Notes under the pieces: generated by a model | The model's database searches: none | Seen by the model: only the letters and a program-made list of their open reading frames with translations | Told to the model about the DNA's origin: nothing | IMG/VR virus record: IMGVR_UViG_3300037460_000291 | Span: 1-33,203 of that record | DNA from: a virus | Strand: one strand, 5' to 3' | Length of the DNA: 33,203 nt | Part shown: positions 3,826 to 22,429 of the stretch, piece after piece | Position numbering within the stretch: the stretch's first letter is position 1 | Layout of the letters: each line of letters opens with the position of its first letter | Program-made: the position numbers and the translations under genes

Positions 3826-4046
3826 TTGATTGTCTCCTCATATATCTCATCGATAGTTCGCGCGCATATTTTACATACTACCGCCGCACCGACATTCATA
3901 TGTTTTAAATGACCTTTAATATGCTCAACAAAGATACGTTCTTTGTCGCGATCTGCTTTAAGATCCACTACCTCTTGCTTCAACTCGTCGATCTCAGGCT
4001 GTCTCTTCTTCATGCCCTGATTTACGCCTCTCTCGTACATGCTCAT
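3822..4046 (-). CDS. Coiled-coil protein with CxxC, function unknown
   Basis: 74 residues. Residues 15-50 form a strongly charged heptad-like helix, followed by a hydrophobic turn and CKIC (about residues 58-61). A single CxxC would need a partner or dimer to bind zinc. The start overlaps the HNH gene's stop behind an AGGAGACAAT site, as in the next two genes downstream. Confidence 0.6.
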   Translation of the reverse strand: MSMYERGVNQGMKKRQPEIDELKQEVVDLKADRDKERIFVEHIKGHLKHMNVGAAVVCKICARTIDEIYEETIK

Positions 4047-4459
4047 CCGATTGTCTCCTTTTTAAGAGCCCATTGCGCTCTTTTCTTTGCATTTATTTTG
4101 TCTTTTTTTCTATGATAGTGTTTTAGCGCTCGCCCGGACTCACACTCCTTGCACACTACATAATATTTCAAGAATTGTTTTTTGGTTGTATAAGAAGAAT
4201 ACAGCTCCATAGGTAATGTTTTATTACAATCAATGCAATACTTGTGCCATCTACCGTTTATTTTAGTGTATCTGTGGCTATGTATTCTGCAATGGTCACG
4301 CTGTGTACAACATAATAGATTCTCTATCCGGTTGTCTTTTGTATCCCCGTTTACATGATGAACTACATAACCGTTTGGTATTTTACCATTGTGCTTTTCC
4401 CAAACAATACGATGCTCTTGCTTCCCGTTAATTTGCTTATAATATCCTCTCTCTTTCAT
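4043..4459 (-). CDS. HNH homing-type endonuclease (HNH_3-like), cassette A
   Basis: 138 residues from the ATG at 4459. The frame stays open upstream to 4474 with TTG codons, inside the HTH gene. The core reads HRIVWEKHNGKIPNGYVVHHVNGDTKDN in outline, with VVHHVNGD and the following NRIENL matching the HNH_3 family of phage free-standing endonucleases. A C-terminal part has paired cysteines (CIDC, CKEC) and a very basic tail. Such enzymes nick or cut DNA and spread their own gene between phages. The gene overlaps the 3' end of an excisionase-like HTH gene in another frame. The second cassette at 8179-8844 has the same arrangement with a different nuclease. Confidence 0.85.
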   Translation of the reverse strand: MKERGYYKQINGKQEHRIVWEKHNGKIPNGYVVHHVNGDTKDNRIENLLCCTQRDHCRIHSHRYTKINGRWHKYCIDCNKTLPMELYSSYTTKKQFLKYYVVCKECESGRALKHYHRKKDKINAKKRAQWALKKETIG

Positions 4460-4610
4460 CAACAAACCCCTCAACTGATTTTGTTTTAATTCTCCACCGG
4501 TTACCTAGCCACGATGCCTTAAGCTCTCCAGCATCTATGTAGCTCTTTACCGTCTTCGGGTGTACTTTTAATATTTTTGCTACTTCTTGAACTGTCAACA
4601 ATTCTTCCAT
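4437..4610 (-). CDS. Excisionase-family HTH protein, cassette A
   Basis: 57 residues. LLTVQEVAKILKVHPKTVKS (residues 4-23) is the helix-turn-helix of the excisionase/MerR-like HTH_17 family. It is followed by the typical wing (LKASWLGNRWRIKTKSVEGF). It should bind DNA. It starts at the ATG at 4610 behind AGGGG, directly downstream of a consensus promoter, and its last part overlaps the HNH endonuclease gene in a different frame. It is similar along its length to the 55-residue protein at 8627-8794. No integrase is visible in the window, so a true excisionase role is not supported. It may regulate its own promoter or aid the endonuclease. Confidence 0.85.
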   Translation of the reverse strand: MEELLTVQEVAKILKVHPKTVKSYIDAGELKASWLGNRWRIKTKSVEGFVDERERIL

Positions 4611-7884: not shown

Positions 7885-8182
7885 TATGACACTCCTCCCC
7901 ACACCTATCCCACGCCTCTGGTATCTCCTCTTCGCGATACATTCGCCTACCTTCTATGAGCCTTATCTCTTCTCGCTTATTAGAGTTAGCCTCGATCCGT
8001 AACATTGCTATAATCTCAAGGGCTGCTTCTATCCTCCCCTCGTTCTCCTCCTGACGATGCTGGAGGGCGGTGAGGTGTTCTCTGTTTTCTAAAATGTTAC
8101 GCGTCACCTGTGCGGAGAAAGCAAGCACCATAACAAGCATCATTAAATACATAATACAATCTGCTATATCTCTACCCTTCAT
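7877..8182 (-). CDS. Membrane-anchored coiled-coil protein
   Basis: 101 residues. A hydrophobic segment at residues 8-26 (DCIMYLMMLVMVLAFSAQV) is followed by a long charged helix to about residue 85, so one membrane anchor plus a coiled coil. This architecture occurs in phage spanins and Rz-like proteins, but also in many unrelated proteins, and its position in the early region argues against a lysis role. AGGAGATGACACT precedes the ATG. Confidence 0.55.
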   Translation of the reverse strand: MKGRDIADCIMYLMMLVMVLAFSAQVTRNILENREHLTALQHRQEENEGRIEAALEIIAMLRIEANSNKREEIRLIEGRRMYREEEIPEAWDRCGEECHNG

Positions 8183-8625
8183 AGTGTCATCTCCTTAAAT
8201 AAATTATCGACCCGACTCTTTATTAGTTCTCCACCGTCAATAAGCCTATGGTATTTCATATGACACGGCTTACACAGCCAAACTATTTCCAATGGTTTAT
8301 TATAGTTGTTATGGTGTGCTTCCGTCTTTGTTTTGGTGTCGCAGGCTTCACATTTATCTAATGCCACCATTCGCCCGGCACGAACCTCAGACCTAATAAT
8401 GTTTTGTGCTTGCCTTTTAATAGGATCACGATTTATGGGGGCGCGTCTTGCTCTGGTTGCTTTATTAAATGCAATTATTTTTTCTGGGTTATTAATCCTG
8501 TAATTTTTATAATATACCCTATGGCAAGCCTTGCAGGATGGTTTATATCCACCCCTACACTTTTTATGCTTATAAAACTCTGTAATGTCTTTTGTTGTTT
8601 TGCATTGCGTACAAGTCCTTTCCAT
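8179..8625 (-). CDS. HNH endonuclease with N-terminal zinc ribbon, cassette B
   Basis: 148 residues from the ATG at 8625, two bases after the HTH gene's TGA. An N-terminal zinc ribbon (CTQCKT... CKAC) and a basic linker precede the HNH core: CEACDTKTKTEAHHNNY, then IVWLCKPCHMKYH. Cysteines and histidines of the core would hold a structural zinc, and the HH and final H are active-site candidates. The frameshifted HNH at 12871-13406 has the same layout and clear similarity in the core. The nuclease of cassette A is of a different HNH type. Confidence 0.85.
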   Translation of the reverse strand: MERTCTQCKTTKDITEFYKHKKCRGGYKPSCKACHRVYYKNYRINNPEKIIAFNKATRARRAPINRDPIKRQAQNIIRSEVRAGRMVALDKCEACDTKTKTEAHHNNYNKPLEIVWLCKPCHMKYHRLIDGGELIKSRVDNLFKEMTL

Positions 8626-8626
8626 A

Positions 8627-8794
8627 TCACCCCTCGCTTTTATCAACAAACCTCTCAACCTCAGACGGCTTTATCCGCCATTGGCTGCCTAACTTAGAAG
8701 CCTTAAGATTGCCTTGTTTAATATATCTAGTAACTGTTTTCGTGCTTACGTTTAATAATTCAGCCGCTTCTTTCAATGTGTATAGTTTGTCCAT
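8627..8794 (-). CDS. Excisionase-family HTH protein, cassette B
   Basis: 55 residues. YTLKEAAELLNVSTKTVTRY is the HTH and LKASKLGSQWRIKPSEVERF the wing. It shares the frame-by-frame pattern of the cassette A protein (TVK/TVT, LKAS.LG..WRIK, VE.FVD). The start is the ATG at 8794 behind AGGGG, with a promoter immediately upstream. It should bind DNA. With no integrase in view, autoregulation or a role with the adjacent HNH enzyme is as likely as excision. Confidence 0.85.
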   Translation of the reverse strand: MDKLYTLKEAAELLNVSTKTVTRYIKQGNLKASKLGSQWRIKPSEVERFVDKSEG

Positions 8795-11058: not shown

Positions 11059-11211
11059 TTATACTTCTTCTATCATGTAAAGATGGTCATCATCGTTTTT
11101 GTTTAAGAAGTCTTTTAGATCGACAAGCATTTTGTTGTCCCTCGCCCACCTTGTTAATATCTTTATTGGGTTGCTATATTTACCCGTGCTCTGTATGAGT
11201 CTATACTTCAT
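11059..11211 (-). CDS. Hypothetical 50-residue protein
   Basis: Start taken at the ATG at 11211, behind AGGAG and overlapping the upstream TGA as ATGA. The product begins MKYRLIQSTGKYSNPIKILT and ends acidic (NDDDHLYMIEEV). No family or motif is recognised. Confidence 0.5.
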   Translation of the reverse strand: MKYRLIQSTGKYSNPIKILTRWARDNKMLVDLKDFLNKNDDDHLYMIEEV

Positions 11212-11906
11212 AAGGAGGCTCCTTTGGGTAGCGCGGGGAAACACTTAAGTTTAGATATATCGGAGCAGTTAAAAACCGTAACGCCTCGTTCTTTAAGTAT
11301 TTCAGAACCATAATTAAAAGATTTTATCATGTGGATAAACCGCTTTTCGCCGACGCTGTCCTCTCTATCATAGCCCTCATGGAAGTGCGTCGCGCCATCA
11401 TGGTAGCACATATCAACTCCGAGCAGGAATATAGGATCAGCACCCATAACATACGCAAGGTTTAAAGCAAGGTACGCCGCGTTGCCACCATGAAACAACC
11501 CATCATCAAAGCTATCTGACAGTCCGAGTGCGCCGAGGTTCTTAGCGAACCTTACCTTGTTGCGGTACTTGTTCCATGAGTGCGTGAATATTTCACCATC
11601 AAACGACTCTACTTGATCCTCGTGCCAGTCGTAAAATTGGTCGTCCATGTAAACCATGTATTGAGCGTCTACGTATTCGATAGCGCGATTGCAAGCTATT
11701 ACAATCTTTCCGGTTAGAGTAGCAAAGTCAAAGCCCTTCAACGAAGCTCCGCCGCCAACAATATAAATAGCTTCTCCTTTATGTTTTTGATCTATCATCC
11801 CGCACTCTTCTTCCTCTTCTTCTTGATTTTCCCTGCACTGCGCACACAGTTCCCCTTCTACTAGCATGGGTGTGCCGCATTTCTGGCAGTAAGTGTGTTC
11901 GCTCAT
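11208..11906 (-). CDS. Zinc-ribbon + DUF115/Maf-like (MptE/sialyltransferase-like) protein
   Basis: 232 residues. Residues 7-24 form a zinc ribbon (C7, C10, C21, C24), followed by an acidic linker (about 29-36). From residue 45, EAIYIVGGGASLKGFDF resembles the nucleotide-binding start of DUF115/Maf proteins and CstII-like sialyltransferases. Later segments KIVIACNRAIEYV, LLGVDMCYHDGATHFHEGY and ILKERGVTVFNCS fit the same fold. Relatives transfer sugars such as pseudaminic acid, or act on pterins; phage copies have no settled substrate. Modification of a surface glycan or of phage DNA are both possible. The domain is full length. The N-terminal ribbon is an unusual addition. Confidence 0.65.
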   Translation of the reverse strand: MSEHTYCQKCGTPMLVEGELCAQCRENQEEEEEECGMIDQKHKGEAIYIVGGGASLKGFDFATLTGKIVIACNRAIEYVDAQYMVYMDDQFYDWHEDQVESFDGEIFTHSWNKYRNKVRFAKNLGALGLSDSFDDGLFHGGNAAYLALNLAYVMGADPIFLLGVDMCYHDGATHFHEGYDREDSVGEKRFIHMIKSFNYGSEILKERGVTVFNCSDISKLKCFPALPKGASL

Positions 11907-12870: not shown

Positions 12871-13406
12871 TTAAATAAACCCGCCCTCAAGCTTTATTTT
12901 AAATATTTGTTTTACCTTTTGTCTGATATCAACGGCCTTCTTTGCCCTTCCCCTATGATAATATCTGTGGCACGAGAGACATAACCACACCACAAGTAAT
13001 GGCAGAGAATAGTCATTATGGTGTTTTTCTAAAACGTTTCTTTGTTGCAACACTCGCACTTGGTTTGCTTTTTTATTAATCCAGACGCTTGAGCCCTGTG
13101 TGCTTTTAAGACAGCCCTATTTTTCTTTTTGCGCTGCTCGGCATTAGCTTTTCTTTTTAATTGCAGGCGTTTTTTTACGTGGGGCTGTTTTGTCCAGTCT
13201 GCTTGTCTTTTGCGGGCATCTGGATTGCTATAATATTTTTTATTATACTTACTTATCTTTTCTATGTTATCAATTCTATACTGTACATTTCTAGCGTTTT
13301 TACATTCCTTACATTCATACGCATGACCATCTTTTTCATTTCTAGATTTATGATATTCTTCTAGTGGTTTTATCTTATCACATGAATAGCATTTTTTTGT
13401 TTTCAT
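12871..13406 (-). pseudogene. Frameshifted HNH endonuclease with zinc ribbons
   Basis: The first frame (13406 to a TAG at 13029-13031) has an N-terminal zinc ribbon (CYSCDKIKPLEEYHK... CKECKN), a very basic linker, and ends at CECCNKETF. A second frame then carries the rest of the HNH core: EKHHNDYSLPLLVVWLCLSC, then HRYYH, ending at 12871. Compared with the intact enzyme at 8179-8625, the two pieces join as KET + VLEKHHNDY if one base is restored near 13032. This is a one-base deletion, a sequencing error, or (less likely, as no good slippery heptamer is visible) programmed frameshifting. There is no HTH gene in front of this copy. GGGAGAG precedes the ATG. Confidence 0.75.
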
Positions 13407-16340: not shown

Positions 16341-16384
16341 CGTTCTCCACCTCTCTAAGTTAATTTATCATTCATCTTACACAA

Positions 16385-16413
16385 AAGATAACATAAGGAA
16401 ATATGTTTGTCAA
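16385..16413 (-). promoter_or_regulatory. Leftward early promoter
   Basis: On the minus strand TTGACA (16408-16413) and TATCTT (16385-16390) are exactly 17 bp apart, giving a transcript that enters 15960-16340 and the long leftward operon. It diverges from the rightward promoter at 16455-16483, as P_L and P_R do around a phage repressor region. Confidence 0.75.
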
Positions 16414-16434
16414 GTATTATTTTCGTATTATTTT
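16414..16434. repeat. Two 10-bp direct repeats, possible operator
   Basis: GTATTATTTT occurs at 16414-16423 and again at 16425-16434, so the copies start 11 bp apart, one helical turn. They touch the -35 box of the leftward promoter and lie between the two divergent promoters. This is a likely place for the adjacent XRE-type protein to bind, though phage operators are more often inverted repeats. Confidence 0.45.
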
Positions 16435-16454
16435 AGTAATGTGTGATTTATATG

Positions 16455-17255: not shown

Positions 17256-18305
17256 ATGGCAATGGAATACGCGCGGCTCTACTTTGATTTCTTTACGAGC
17301 GAAAAGACACAGTTTCTCTTAGATGAGTGCGGCTCAGAGGGCGTAGTTTGCCTCCAAAGACTATGGGTAAGGGCAGGACAAAGAAATAATGACGGGGTGT
17401 TTAATAAGACAGGTAGAGCCCTTGAGAAGATCGCTGGTTGGAAGGGTGAATCTGGCAAGCTCGTCGGTAGTTTGACAGATCCCGACTTTATGTTCCTTGA
17501 GAAGATCAGCGACAACGAGTACAGGCTACATAATTGGCTGGAAAACAACGAACATCTTAGCGATAAAGCAAAGGAAATGCGCGTAGACAAGGCTCGTAGA
17601 GCGGCTAACGCACGTTGGGGCAATAAAGAACAGGACGATGCTACGGGCATGCCCCTAGAATGCTCCAAGGATGCTAAGCCTATGCCCGTAGCATGCTCAA
17701 GTATGCTTGGCGATGCTAACTTAACTAAACATAACGTAACTGAACTTAAAGTAAGTACTAAAGACTCTGTCGATGAGAATCCAAAGCCTGACAAAAAAAA
17801 AGAGCTCGCACAACAGATCATCGACCATTTTAACAAGATCACTGGACGTGACAACGGAACCAAGAGACCGATCACCTTAACCGGTAAGACGAAATCACAG
17901 ATCATGGCACGGATAAAAGAGGGGTATAGAATCGATGACTTTAAGAAGGTGACTGAGGTCTGTTACTACAACTGGAAGGATACGGAATTTAGTGACAGGA
18001 TACATCCGATAACTATCTTCAACAGCGAGATGGATAAGAGAATCGACTGGCAGAGGAGTGACGTGACGGAAGAAGAGACGTTGCCACAAGACCCGGAGTC
18101 GGTTTTCTTTAGAGCCCTGCCGTCAATTATTCAGCTCAGGAACAATAAGCAGATCCATAGAGACACCTTTATGAGAGACTTGAAAGAGGCAGACGAAGAG
18201 CAGCGTGCTAAGATGCTTAAACGTATAGGAATGGAAGATTATCAAACTGCCGAACAGCGAGCAAATATCAAGAAAGTATCTGAGTTAGTCGGTGAAGTTA
18301 AATAA
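17256..18305 (+). CDS. Phage replication initiator (O-like), winged helix + Phg_2220_C-type domain
   Basis: 349 residues. Residues 1-105 have the winged-helix pattern of phage replisome organisers (ARLYFDFFTSEKTQFLLDEC, then LQRLWVRAGQ and the NEYRLHNWLEN wing). A low-complexity linker follows (about 115-185). Residues 185-265 match the conserved phage C-terminal replication domain, with IIDHFNKITGR, ARIKEGYRIDDFKKV and YYNWKDTEF. By analogy with lambda O it should bind repeats in the origin and recruit a helicase or its loader; none is encoded in view. The linker-coding DNA carries an iteron array with an AT-rich stretch. Confidence 0.8.
   Translation: MAMEYARLYFDFFTSEKTQFLLDECGSEGVVCLQRLWVRAGQRNNDGVFNKTGRALEKIAGWKGESGKLVGSLTDPDFMFLEKISDNEYRLHNWLENNEHLSDKAKEMRVDKARRAANARWGNKEQDDATGMPLECSKDAKPMPVACSSMLGDANLTKHNVTELKVSTKDSVDENPKPDKKKELAQQIIDHFNKITGRDNGTKRPITLTGKTKSQIMARIKEGYRIDDFKKVTEVCYYNWKDTEFSDRIHPITIFNSEMDKRIDWQRSDVTEEETLPQDPESVFFRALPSIIQLRNNKQIHRDTFMRDLKEADEEQRAKMLKRIGMEDYQTAEQRANIKKVSELVGEVK
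17638..17763. other. Candidate replication origin inside the initiator gene
   Basis: Six copies of ATGCT begin at 17638, 17660, 17671, 17693, 17703 and 17713, so the spacings are 22, 11, 22, 10 and 10 bp, close to whole turns of the helix. A 13-bp perfect inverted repeat (ATGCTACGGGCAT at 17638-17650, its complement at 17682-17694) and the palindrome GGGCATGCCC (17645-17654) lie in it. Directly after come six pentamers of the form NNAAC (17716-17745) in a stretch of about 73% A+T. Iterons plus an AT-rich unwinding stretch inside the initiator gene is the plan of lambda ori. Confidence 0.65.
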
Positions 18306-20785: not shown

Positions 20786-22429
20786 ATGGGACAGGCACAA
20801 CGAACATATTCAGATGAGCAGCTTGAGGTCGGTATCAGACTACACGACGACTACGAGTTTTACGCTGAACACGCTCTCAAGATCAAGCCGAAGGATAAGC
20901 GAGACGGTGCTCTCGTGCCCCTTATATTCAACACAGCGCAGAAATACATCCACTACAGACTAGAGCGTCAAATGTTCCTTATTGGAATGATCCGCGCTTA
21001 TGTACTCAAGGGTAGGCAGCAGGGCTGCTCAACCTATGTTGAAGGTCGTTATATCCACAACACGAGCCTAAACTATGGGATTAAGACCTTCATACAGACT
21101 CATAGCGCAGAGGCGACGAGCAACCTATACAGGATGGCACACAGGTATCTTGACAACCTTCCGCACGATCTAAAGCCTGTGGTTGGTGTATCTAACACAA
21201 AAGAATTGATATTCCCCGAGCTTGATTCTGGCTACAGGGTCAGTACCGCAGGATCTAAAGAGACTGGCCGCTCTGACATGATAGATCATTTACACGGGTC
21301 AGAGGTGGCTTTTTGGGTAGATGCTGAGAAGCACGCAGCCGGGCTGTTGCAGGCTGTACCATATGCGCCCAATACGAGCGTTATATTCGAGACGACAGCT
21401 AATGGTACCGGTGGATATTATCAAAAAAGGTATGTCGCTTCTGAAAAGGGGCAAAATGGAGATTACATTGCTATCTTCACGCCTTGGTACTGGCAGCTTG
21501 AGTATACAAAGCCCGTCCCTGAAGATTTTACGAGAACGCCCCAAGAGCAGGAATATGTAGATCTATATGACACTTATCCTGTCTTTGGTGATGATTGGGA
21601 AGTAACCTACGAGACAAGAAAGATAACCGACGGACAACTAATGTGGCGTCGAGATAAGATCGCGGAGTTTGATGGCAGTGTTGCAAAGTTTAATCAAGAA
21701 TATCCTGCGACATCTCAAATGGCATTCCAGTACAGCGCTACCGATAGCTTTATATCAGCAGAATCAGTTCTTGAAGCATTAAAGAGGCCACAGTATAGAT
21801 CATATGGTGCTATCGCGGCCGCATTCGATCCCGCTTTTACAGACAATGAGAACAGCGACAGGAAGGCGTTTATCTTCAGGCAAGGGGCAAACATGTTCGG
21901 CCTTGAGTATCCGAAGCTTAAAGGACATGAGGCTATGGTTGGCTTTATTAAGAAGAAGCTGGATGGGAAAATCAAGATCGATTGCTTTTTCATAGACTCA
22001 GGCGGCGGCGGATATGCGCTGTTTAGTAGCTTAGATGCTGCTGGTTATGTAGATAAATACAACATCGTGCTAGTAACCAACTCCAAGTCTGCCGAAGAAG
22101 ATCATAAGTATGCCAATAAAAGGGCTGAGGACGCGGCAAGACTTAAATACGCCTTAATAGACCCCGACATGCCACTATCGATAAGCATTGATAAAGAGTT
22201 GGAATCTGCATATTTAACGGATATGACCGCAGAGGGATGGTTCGAGGACAGAAACAACCGGATACAGCTAGAGAAGAAAGAGGACGTGAAGAGTAGGCTT
22301 GGCATATCGCCCGAGGGAAGGGACGTGTCAGCGCTGACATATTCAAGGAAAATCGTTCGCGATCATGTTATGGCCGGCCAGGACGACAACAACTATATGC
22401 CTGATAAGAGCAGAACCGACCAATGGTAA
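20786..22429 (+). CDS. terL: Terminase large subunit
   Basis: 547 residues, a normal length. ATPase part: a Walker A-like KGRQQGCST (75-83) and Walker B with the coupling glutamate at HLHGSEVAFW (168-177), then ETTANG (motif III, about 202-207). Nuclease part: AAFDPAF (D348) and FFIDSGGGGYAL (D404), RNase H-like acidic residues. The enzyme cuts concatemeric DNA and pumps it into the prohead through the connector. The RBS (GAGGTAAGG) lies just after the terminator's T-run. Confidence 0.9.
   Translation: MGQAQRTYSDEQLEVGIRLHDDYEFYAEHALKIKPKDKRDGALVPLIFNTAQKYIHYRLERQMFLIGMIRAYVLKGRQQGCSTYVEGRYIHNTSLNYGIKTFIQTHSAEATSNLYRMAHRYLDNLPHDLKPVVGVSNTKELIFPELDSGYRVSTAGSKETGRSDMIDHLHGSEVAFWVDAEKHAAGLLQAVPYAPNTSVIFETTANGTGGYYQKRYVASEKGQNGDYIAIFTPWYWQLEYTKPVPEDFTRTPQEQEYVDLYDTYPVFGDDWEVTYETRKITDGQLMWRRDKIAEFDGSVAKFNQEYPATSQMAFQYSATDSFISAESVLEALKRPQYRSYGAIAAAFDPAFTDNENSDRKAFIFRQGANMFGLEYPKLKGHEAMVGFIKKKLDGKIKIDCFFIDSGGGGYALFSSLDAAGYVDKYNIVLVTNSKSAEEDHKYANKRAEDAARLKYALIDPDMPLSISIDKELESAYLTDMTAEGWFEDRNNRIQLEKKEDVKSRLGISPEGRDVSALTYSRKIVRDHVMAGQDDNNYMPDKSRTDQW

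Follow-up and report, generated by a model that had tools for sequence, protein, structure and literature searches.

The window, which is the whole 33,203-nucleotide stretch of viral DNA analyzed here (IMG/VR record IMGVR_UViG_3300037460_000291), carries on its plus strand a replication initiator gene at positions 17256 to 18305. Its 349-residue product comprises a winged-helix-like N-terminal part, a disordered linker and a C-terminal Phg_2220_C domain; the last of these was recognized by PF09524 at residues 188-258 (E 1.3e-11) with a score of 44.8 bits, above the curated cut-off of 27, and the protein was matched to phrog_428 (replication initiation) at E 5e-17. An AlphaFold2 model placed the winged-helix-like part at residues 16-122 and a confident helical domain at residues 178-264, while residues 124-170 (pLDDT<50) are predicted to form the disordered linker. 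The modelled N-terminal part aligned weakly with winged-helix chains (VIA-align), as with 4ro3, the N-terminal part of PLE RepA (Z 4.2, rmsd 3.6, 80 residues), and a profile built from five Phg_2220_C initiators matched RepA N-domain structures. The initiator gave no match to PF07120 (DUF1376), the domain found in most initiators with ATGCY arrays, nor to PDB sequences, and a Foldseek search with its model returned no match at E<=0.001; no AAA+ domain was recognized with Pfam or PHROG. Proteins of Sak4-like, single-strand-binding and exonuclease type are encoded near the initiator gene. No helicase, primase or polymerase was recognized among the window genes scanned, and the phage therefore probably uses host replication proteins.

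Within the initiator gene lies an array of eight ATGCY iterons (17638..17717, plus strand), beginning at 17638, 17649, 17660, 17671, 17682, 17693, 17703 and 17713, with start-to-start spacings of 11, 11, 11, 11, 11, 10 and 10 bp. The original prediction had listed six ATGCT copies (17638, 17660, 17671, 17693, 17703 and 17713) at intervals of 22, 11, 22, 10 and 10 bp; all were found in place, and two ATGCC copies that it had overlooked (17649 and 17682) fill both of its 22-bp gaps. Direct reading also bore out a perfect 13-bp inverted repeat, ATGCTACGGGCAT / ATGCCCGTAGCAT (arms 17638-17650 and 17682-17694), which is part of a 27-bp pair with 78% complementarity, and the palindrome GGGCATGCCC at 17645..17654, around the second iteron, both of which had been predicted. 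A pattern of three ATGCY copies at 11 bp was counted four times in the window and not once in 100 dinucleotide shuffles; the longest ATGCY chain across 300 Markov-2 genomes had two members, and there is no other chain of three or more within the window.

At 17718, directly after the end of the final ATGCT (17717), comes the first AAC triplet of a second set of repeats. This second set, a probable DNA-unwinding element, consists of the six back-to-back NNAAC pentamers of the original prediction (CTAAC TTAAC TAAAC ATAAC GTAAC TGAAC; 17716..17745, plus strand), with AAC triplets starting every 5 bp at 17718, 17723, 17728, 17733, 17738 and 17743, and is followed by a degenerate continuation of A-rich repeats, TTAAA GTAAG TACTAAAG (17746..17763, plus strand). 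The A+T content, put earlier at about 73%, was found to be 74.5% over 17717-17763. Four AAC pentamers in succession were counted three times in the window, compared with none in 100 dinucleotide shuffles, and lag-5 identity measured over 45 bp attains 0.6 at the pentamer block and nowhere else in the window. The duplex stability of the gene is lowest at the pentamers: for stability, the 50 bp from about 17717 rank in the bottom 0.2% of the gene and in the bottom 1.2% of the window.

Residues 128-165 of the initiator are encoded by the array together with the pentamers, and so both elements sit on the disordered linker. Just before the array the gene encodes ANARWG, and an A..RW motif occurs at the same place in many ATGCY-array genes. 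When synonymous codons of the linker were resampled with the protein held fixed, the eight-copy ATGCY chain had a P of 0.00025 and the six pentamers a P of 0.00375; the two together appeared in none of 20,000 resamplings. No relative whose linker could be aligned turned up among the viral and genome contigs scanned with the initiator or the viral contigs scanned with the portal protein, and a terminase scan of viral contigs returned two distant contigs only.

Recurrence of the repeats in other phages

The iterons and pentamers had been thought specific to this phage. This view has to be given up, as both 11-bp ATGCY arrays and AAC/AAG pentamer blocks are widespread. Four ATGCY copies at 11 bp, or (ATGCYN6)x4, are present in at least 119 IMG/VR viral contigs; among the matches listed, 33 of these arrays lie inside initiator ORFs of the DUF1376 family, and 26 of the 41 array-bearing ORFs tested matched Pfam DUF1376 together with replication PHROGs. 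With ATGCY at 13-bp spacing, which is off the helical repeat, a complete scan gave 30 contigs, none of which had the array in an initiator ORF. The arrays point either way with respect to the gene, and consequently encode different peptides. Directly downstream, a short-period repeat was detected in 17 of 29 array loci, the window included (p<0.05, relative to random windows from the same locus). The period is 5 to 8 or 12 bp in most of these 17, so that a 5-bp period is frequent without being required.

Scans with the pentamers themselves, in the form of six AACNN repeats, gave among the matches listed 37 that were mid-ORF on the coding strand; 26 of the 30 AAC ORFs tested matched replication-initiation, DnaD-like or O-like PHROGs, belonging to several families, and the iterons preceding the blocks vary widely from phage to phage. 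AAGNN repeats, which served as a negative control, marked initiator genes even more strongly, and the idea of an AAC-specific signal was dropped for that of an A-rich 5-bp rule. Among the AAGNN matches listed, 89 of 117 lie on the coding strand of an ORF of at least 150 residues, and at least 51 of these 89 ORFs match one initiator PHROG, the set being dominated by a single family (Lin1244_N, 51 of 90). Loci selected on other grounds provided a small check that points in the same direction: of 10 runs with at least four repeats, 3 fell inside initiators, against 0.28 expected. The 110 bp upstream of the pentamers, taken from 114 non-redundant ORFs that had been picked by AAC or AAG pentamers alone, revealed autocorrelation at lags of 11 (z 6.7), 21 (z 4.5), 22 (z 5.1) and 33 (z 6.5); in control stretches on the N and C sides it was far weaker or lacking. 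Phased iterons and short repeats predict each other.

Relatives identified through the protein were also compared. The N-terminal part of the window initiator was aligned (hhalign, E 9e-7) with a group of pentamer-bearing initiators of the phrog_9474 kind (L282, L296, L318, L341, L324, L332 and L313). These relatives keep AACNN blocks and have iterons different from those of the window, which marks the iterons as the faster-changing of the two elements. In 44 Phg_2220_C linkers, nearly all picked by protein similarity and thus independently of the repeats, short-period sequence is more abundant than in their own C-terminal domains (Wilcoxon P 2e-5), with periods mostly of 9 and 5 bp. The linkers of several Phg_2220_C initiators (L156, L166, L137 and L167) have, after the iterons and in place of pentamers, blocks of AATAATAC or ACTAATAAT that repeat every 9 or 15 bp. 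By eye, the linker of ydaU, a DUF1376 gene of the Escherichia coli Rac prophage (L123:5120-5977), has repeated TGTTCAAACA-like sites followed by A-rich repeats of 6 bp (AAAGAT ACAGAT AAAGAT), and this arrangement may correspond to oriJ, the origin of the prophage.

One phage contig, L074, carries the module of iterons and pentamers twice (L074:1759-1845 and L074:9454-9550), once in a DUF1376-like initiator gene and once in an intergenic region about 7.7 kb away. The genic copy reads GGCAATGCAAC AGCAATGCAAC AGCATAGCCAC GGCAATGCT and then AAAAG AAAAG AACAG ..., and the intergenic copy GCAATGCTGTT GCAATGCTGTA GCAATGCT and then AAAAG AATAG AAAAG ...; the GCAATGC iteron core, the 11-bp spacing and the junction are the same in both. 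Nowhere else in the contig is the lag-5 signal as strong as at these two copies, which hold six of its seven GCAATGC sites. Intergenic iterons and pentamers were likewise found in the late-gene region of L018, L033, L092 and L098, which are related to L074 and to one another, so that the five contigs count as one independent case. By analogy with oriR of phage SPP1, the non-coding copy is a probable second origin.

Comparison with known replication origins

Among the closest known systems is Lactococcus phage Tuc2009. Its initiator ORF16, like ORF13 of TP901-1, is reported to bind direct repeats that lie within its own gene and function as ori (PMC8965321), and the sequence record of Tuc2009 annotates orf16 as 'contains origin of replication'. 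In orf16 (Rep2009), four copies of CAACCA at exact 11-bp spacing are followed directly by eleven 5-bp repeats (GGATA GGATA GGAGA GGTTA GGTTA GGTAA GGATA GTATA GGTAA GGATA GTATA). The window thus shares with Tuc2009 an in-gene position, 11-bp iterons and adjoining 5-bp repeats, and differs from it in having ATGCY in place of CAACCA, NNAAC in place of GGTTA/GGATA, and a different initiator protein, that of Tuc2009 being DnaD-like. Judged by sequence, the anatomy of the window is that of the experimentally mapped Tuc2009 origin. The repeats and A-rich stretches of TP901-1, 80alpha and lambda have a less regular period. In ori-lambda, as in the window, iterons and then an A-rich stretch lie inside the initiator gene (O), but there the iterons are four, 18 bp long and 20-24 bp apart, and the A-rich stretch has no clean 5-bp period. 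The pentamer form is not universal, TP901-1 and lambda both being without a clean 5-bp repeat.

Bacillus phage SPP1 has one origin, oriL, within gene 38 and a second, oriR, at another place in the genome, and gp38 binds both (PMC6316719). As described, its direct repeats for gp38 lie beside an A+T-rich unwinding element within the gene of the initiator, like those of the window, and its second origin copy parallels that of L074 (PMC6316719). No such second array with an unwinding element was found in the window, the record of which is linear and may be incomplete. With plasmids of the RepA_N type, exemplified by pSK41, the origin likewise lies in the coding sequence of rep, where it covers a part of the protein that can be dispensed with (PMC5703833); the N- and C-terminal domains of pSK41 Rep resemble DnaD (PMC5703833). 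These plasmid origins differ from the window in their 8-9 bp inverted sub-repeats around A-tracts (PMC7145576). The oriC of Bacillus subtilis resembles the window in that double-strand sites are followed by a short-period repeat, which in oriC is read as a single strand (PMC10201434), but its period is 3 nt and its protein a filament of DnaA (AAA+), whereas no DnaA box is near the array of the window. Opposite the DnaA-trios is a repeated motif that DnaD recognizes in single-stranded form (PMC10201434), and plasmid Rep proteins bind one strand of the repeats in the unwinding region, every repeat being needed (PMC4081077). The unwinding elements treated in these two reports are 13-mers, 8-mers or 3-nt repeats, and no description of a 5-bp form was met with in the literature examined.

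A putative origin within the initiator gene

Taken together, the sequence evidence makes it very probable that 17638-17763 is the replication origin of the phage, of the in-gene iteron kind. Repeated sites lie inside the initiator gene (eight ATGCY, 10-11 bp apart), an A+T-rich element abuts the last of them, both are placed over the linker, and the combination recurs in unrelated initiator genes. The original prediction of an origin inside the initiator gene, with iterons and then a melting element over the linker, is thus supported by the initiator families, the linker placement, the recurrence and the Tuc2009 origin; the iteron core of just 5 bp counts against it. Cumulative GC skew, a check suggested at the outset, proved compatible, with its minimum at 16382, 1.26 kb away, but speaks weakly; the minimum coincides with a switch of gene direction and hence cannot separate replication from transcription. 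This divergent intergenic region of lowest skew has a short 11-bp tandem repeat (AGTATTATTTT x2.4) at 16413-16438 and may be a control region. An origin of the DnaA-box type was also considered and rejected: TTWTNCACA occurs only at 11330, 19339 and 23389, a chance number, and none of these sites is near the array.

Following the lambda and SPP1 paradigm of phased iteron binding, distortion, A-rich opening and helicase loading (PMC5043065, PMC6316719), the N-terminal winged-helix-type domain of the initiator would bind the eight ATGCY iterons, all on the same side of the double helix. Once assembled, the complex would bend or wrap the DNA and melt the A-rich pentamers next to it. One of their strands, kept single-stranded by the initiator or a helicase loader, would then allow the host replicative helicase to be loaded. 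Of this scheme, binding, melting, strand choice and helicase loading are inferred.

The repeats could alternatively be a by-product of the protein, if repeat slippage had produced a flexible linker of low complexity whose 11-residue period (AMPxxCxxxA) happens to yield an 11-bp spacing in the DNA. Consistent with such an account, an 11-residue motif is encoded by the array in many initiators and the 6-bp downstream repeats encode dipeptide linkers such as DNDN or PTPT. It is nevertheless very unlikely: periods of 5 and 11 bp are not multiples of a codon, the two array orientations specify different peptides, and synonymous resampling found both runs improbable even given the protein. Moreover, the occurrence of iterons and pentamers in non-coding DNA of L074 and its four relatives disfavors a protein-level cause, and protein as the only cause of the repeats was rejected on account of the L074 copy. 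Initiators can repress their own genes, and the array might accordingly be an autoregulation or immunity site (an operator or a phage-encoded resistance) and not a replication start. Cloned ori regions of Tuc2009 and TP901-1 do give phage-encoded resistance (PMC8965321); here, however, the array is about 380 bp into the coding sequence and not at a promoter, and in many phages it is coupled to a predicted melting element. Little credence is thus given to a regulatory site, and a partition (centromere) or packaging site inside the initiator gene appears extremely improbable. Iteron-like arrays also act as partition sites in plasmids, but no partition gene was recognized among the window genes scanned, and this anatomy is characteristic of initiator genes and is shared by a mapped phage origin.

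A further alternative is a variant of the preferred explanation and compatible with its origin claim: the pentamers would be a passive A+T-rich stretch that melts easily, their 5-bp period carrying no protein information. Its likelihood is judged to be not far short of even. The block is indeed the least stable stretch of the gene, phages sharing ATGCY iterons have downstream periods of 5, 6, 7, 8 and 12 bp, and the A-rich stretch of lambda is irregular. Against passivity, AAC or AAG recurs at a strict 5-bp spacing with the remaining two bases variable; this holds across many unrelated initiator genes, with the triplets almost always on the coding strand. Both L074 sites keep the same register, and both plasmid Rep proteins and DnaD recognize one-strand repeats of an unwound region (PMC4081077, PMC10201434).

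Origins of the in-gene iteron kind are already known, and the variant combining phased iterons with a short-period repeat was not found described. For this variant a two-part grammar of phage origins is offered tentatively, with the chances leaning against it, in which iterons of any sequence, phased at 11 or 21-22 bp, directly precede an A-rich repeat of ~5 bp (AAC/AAG, coding strand) that would be read single-stranded, with one repeat per subunit of the initiator or helicase loader, as a counterpart of the DnaA-trios. That the pentamers are a single-strand code is likewise a hypothesis held at clearly less than even confidence. Since iterons vary freely and the short repeats are retained, the phage-specific part of the origin would be separable from a more general one. 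A few model phages are known to have in-gene iteron origins, and the pentamer block represents a concrete, mutable element for studies of single-strand recognition and helicase loading. A 5-bp repeat beside unrelated iterons in many initiator families may also provide a rule for finding phage origins from sequence only.

Other genes of the window

Between the terminase small subunit and portal genes, 20786-22429 encodes a large-terminase-like protein of 547 residues with no Pfam or PHROG match and only two distant relatives in the viral contigs. At 651-959, about 100 residues of the N-terminus of a C5 DNA methyltransferase are encoded, the gene appearing truncated or split, and the product of 11208-11906, which matched an alpha-2,3-sialyltransferase PHROG (E 6e-26), is possibly glycan-modifying. 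Two overlapping ORFs in different frames at 12871-13406 appear by eye to be halves of one HNH-type endonuclease, and further HNH-like ORFs are located at 4043-4474 and 8179-8658.
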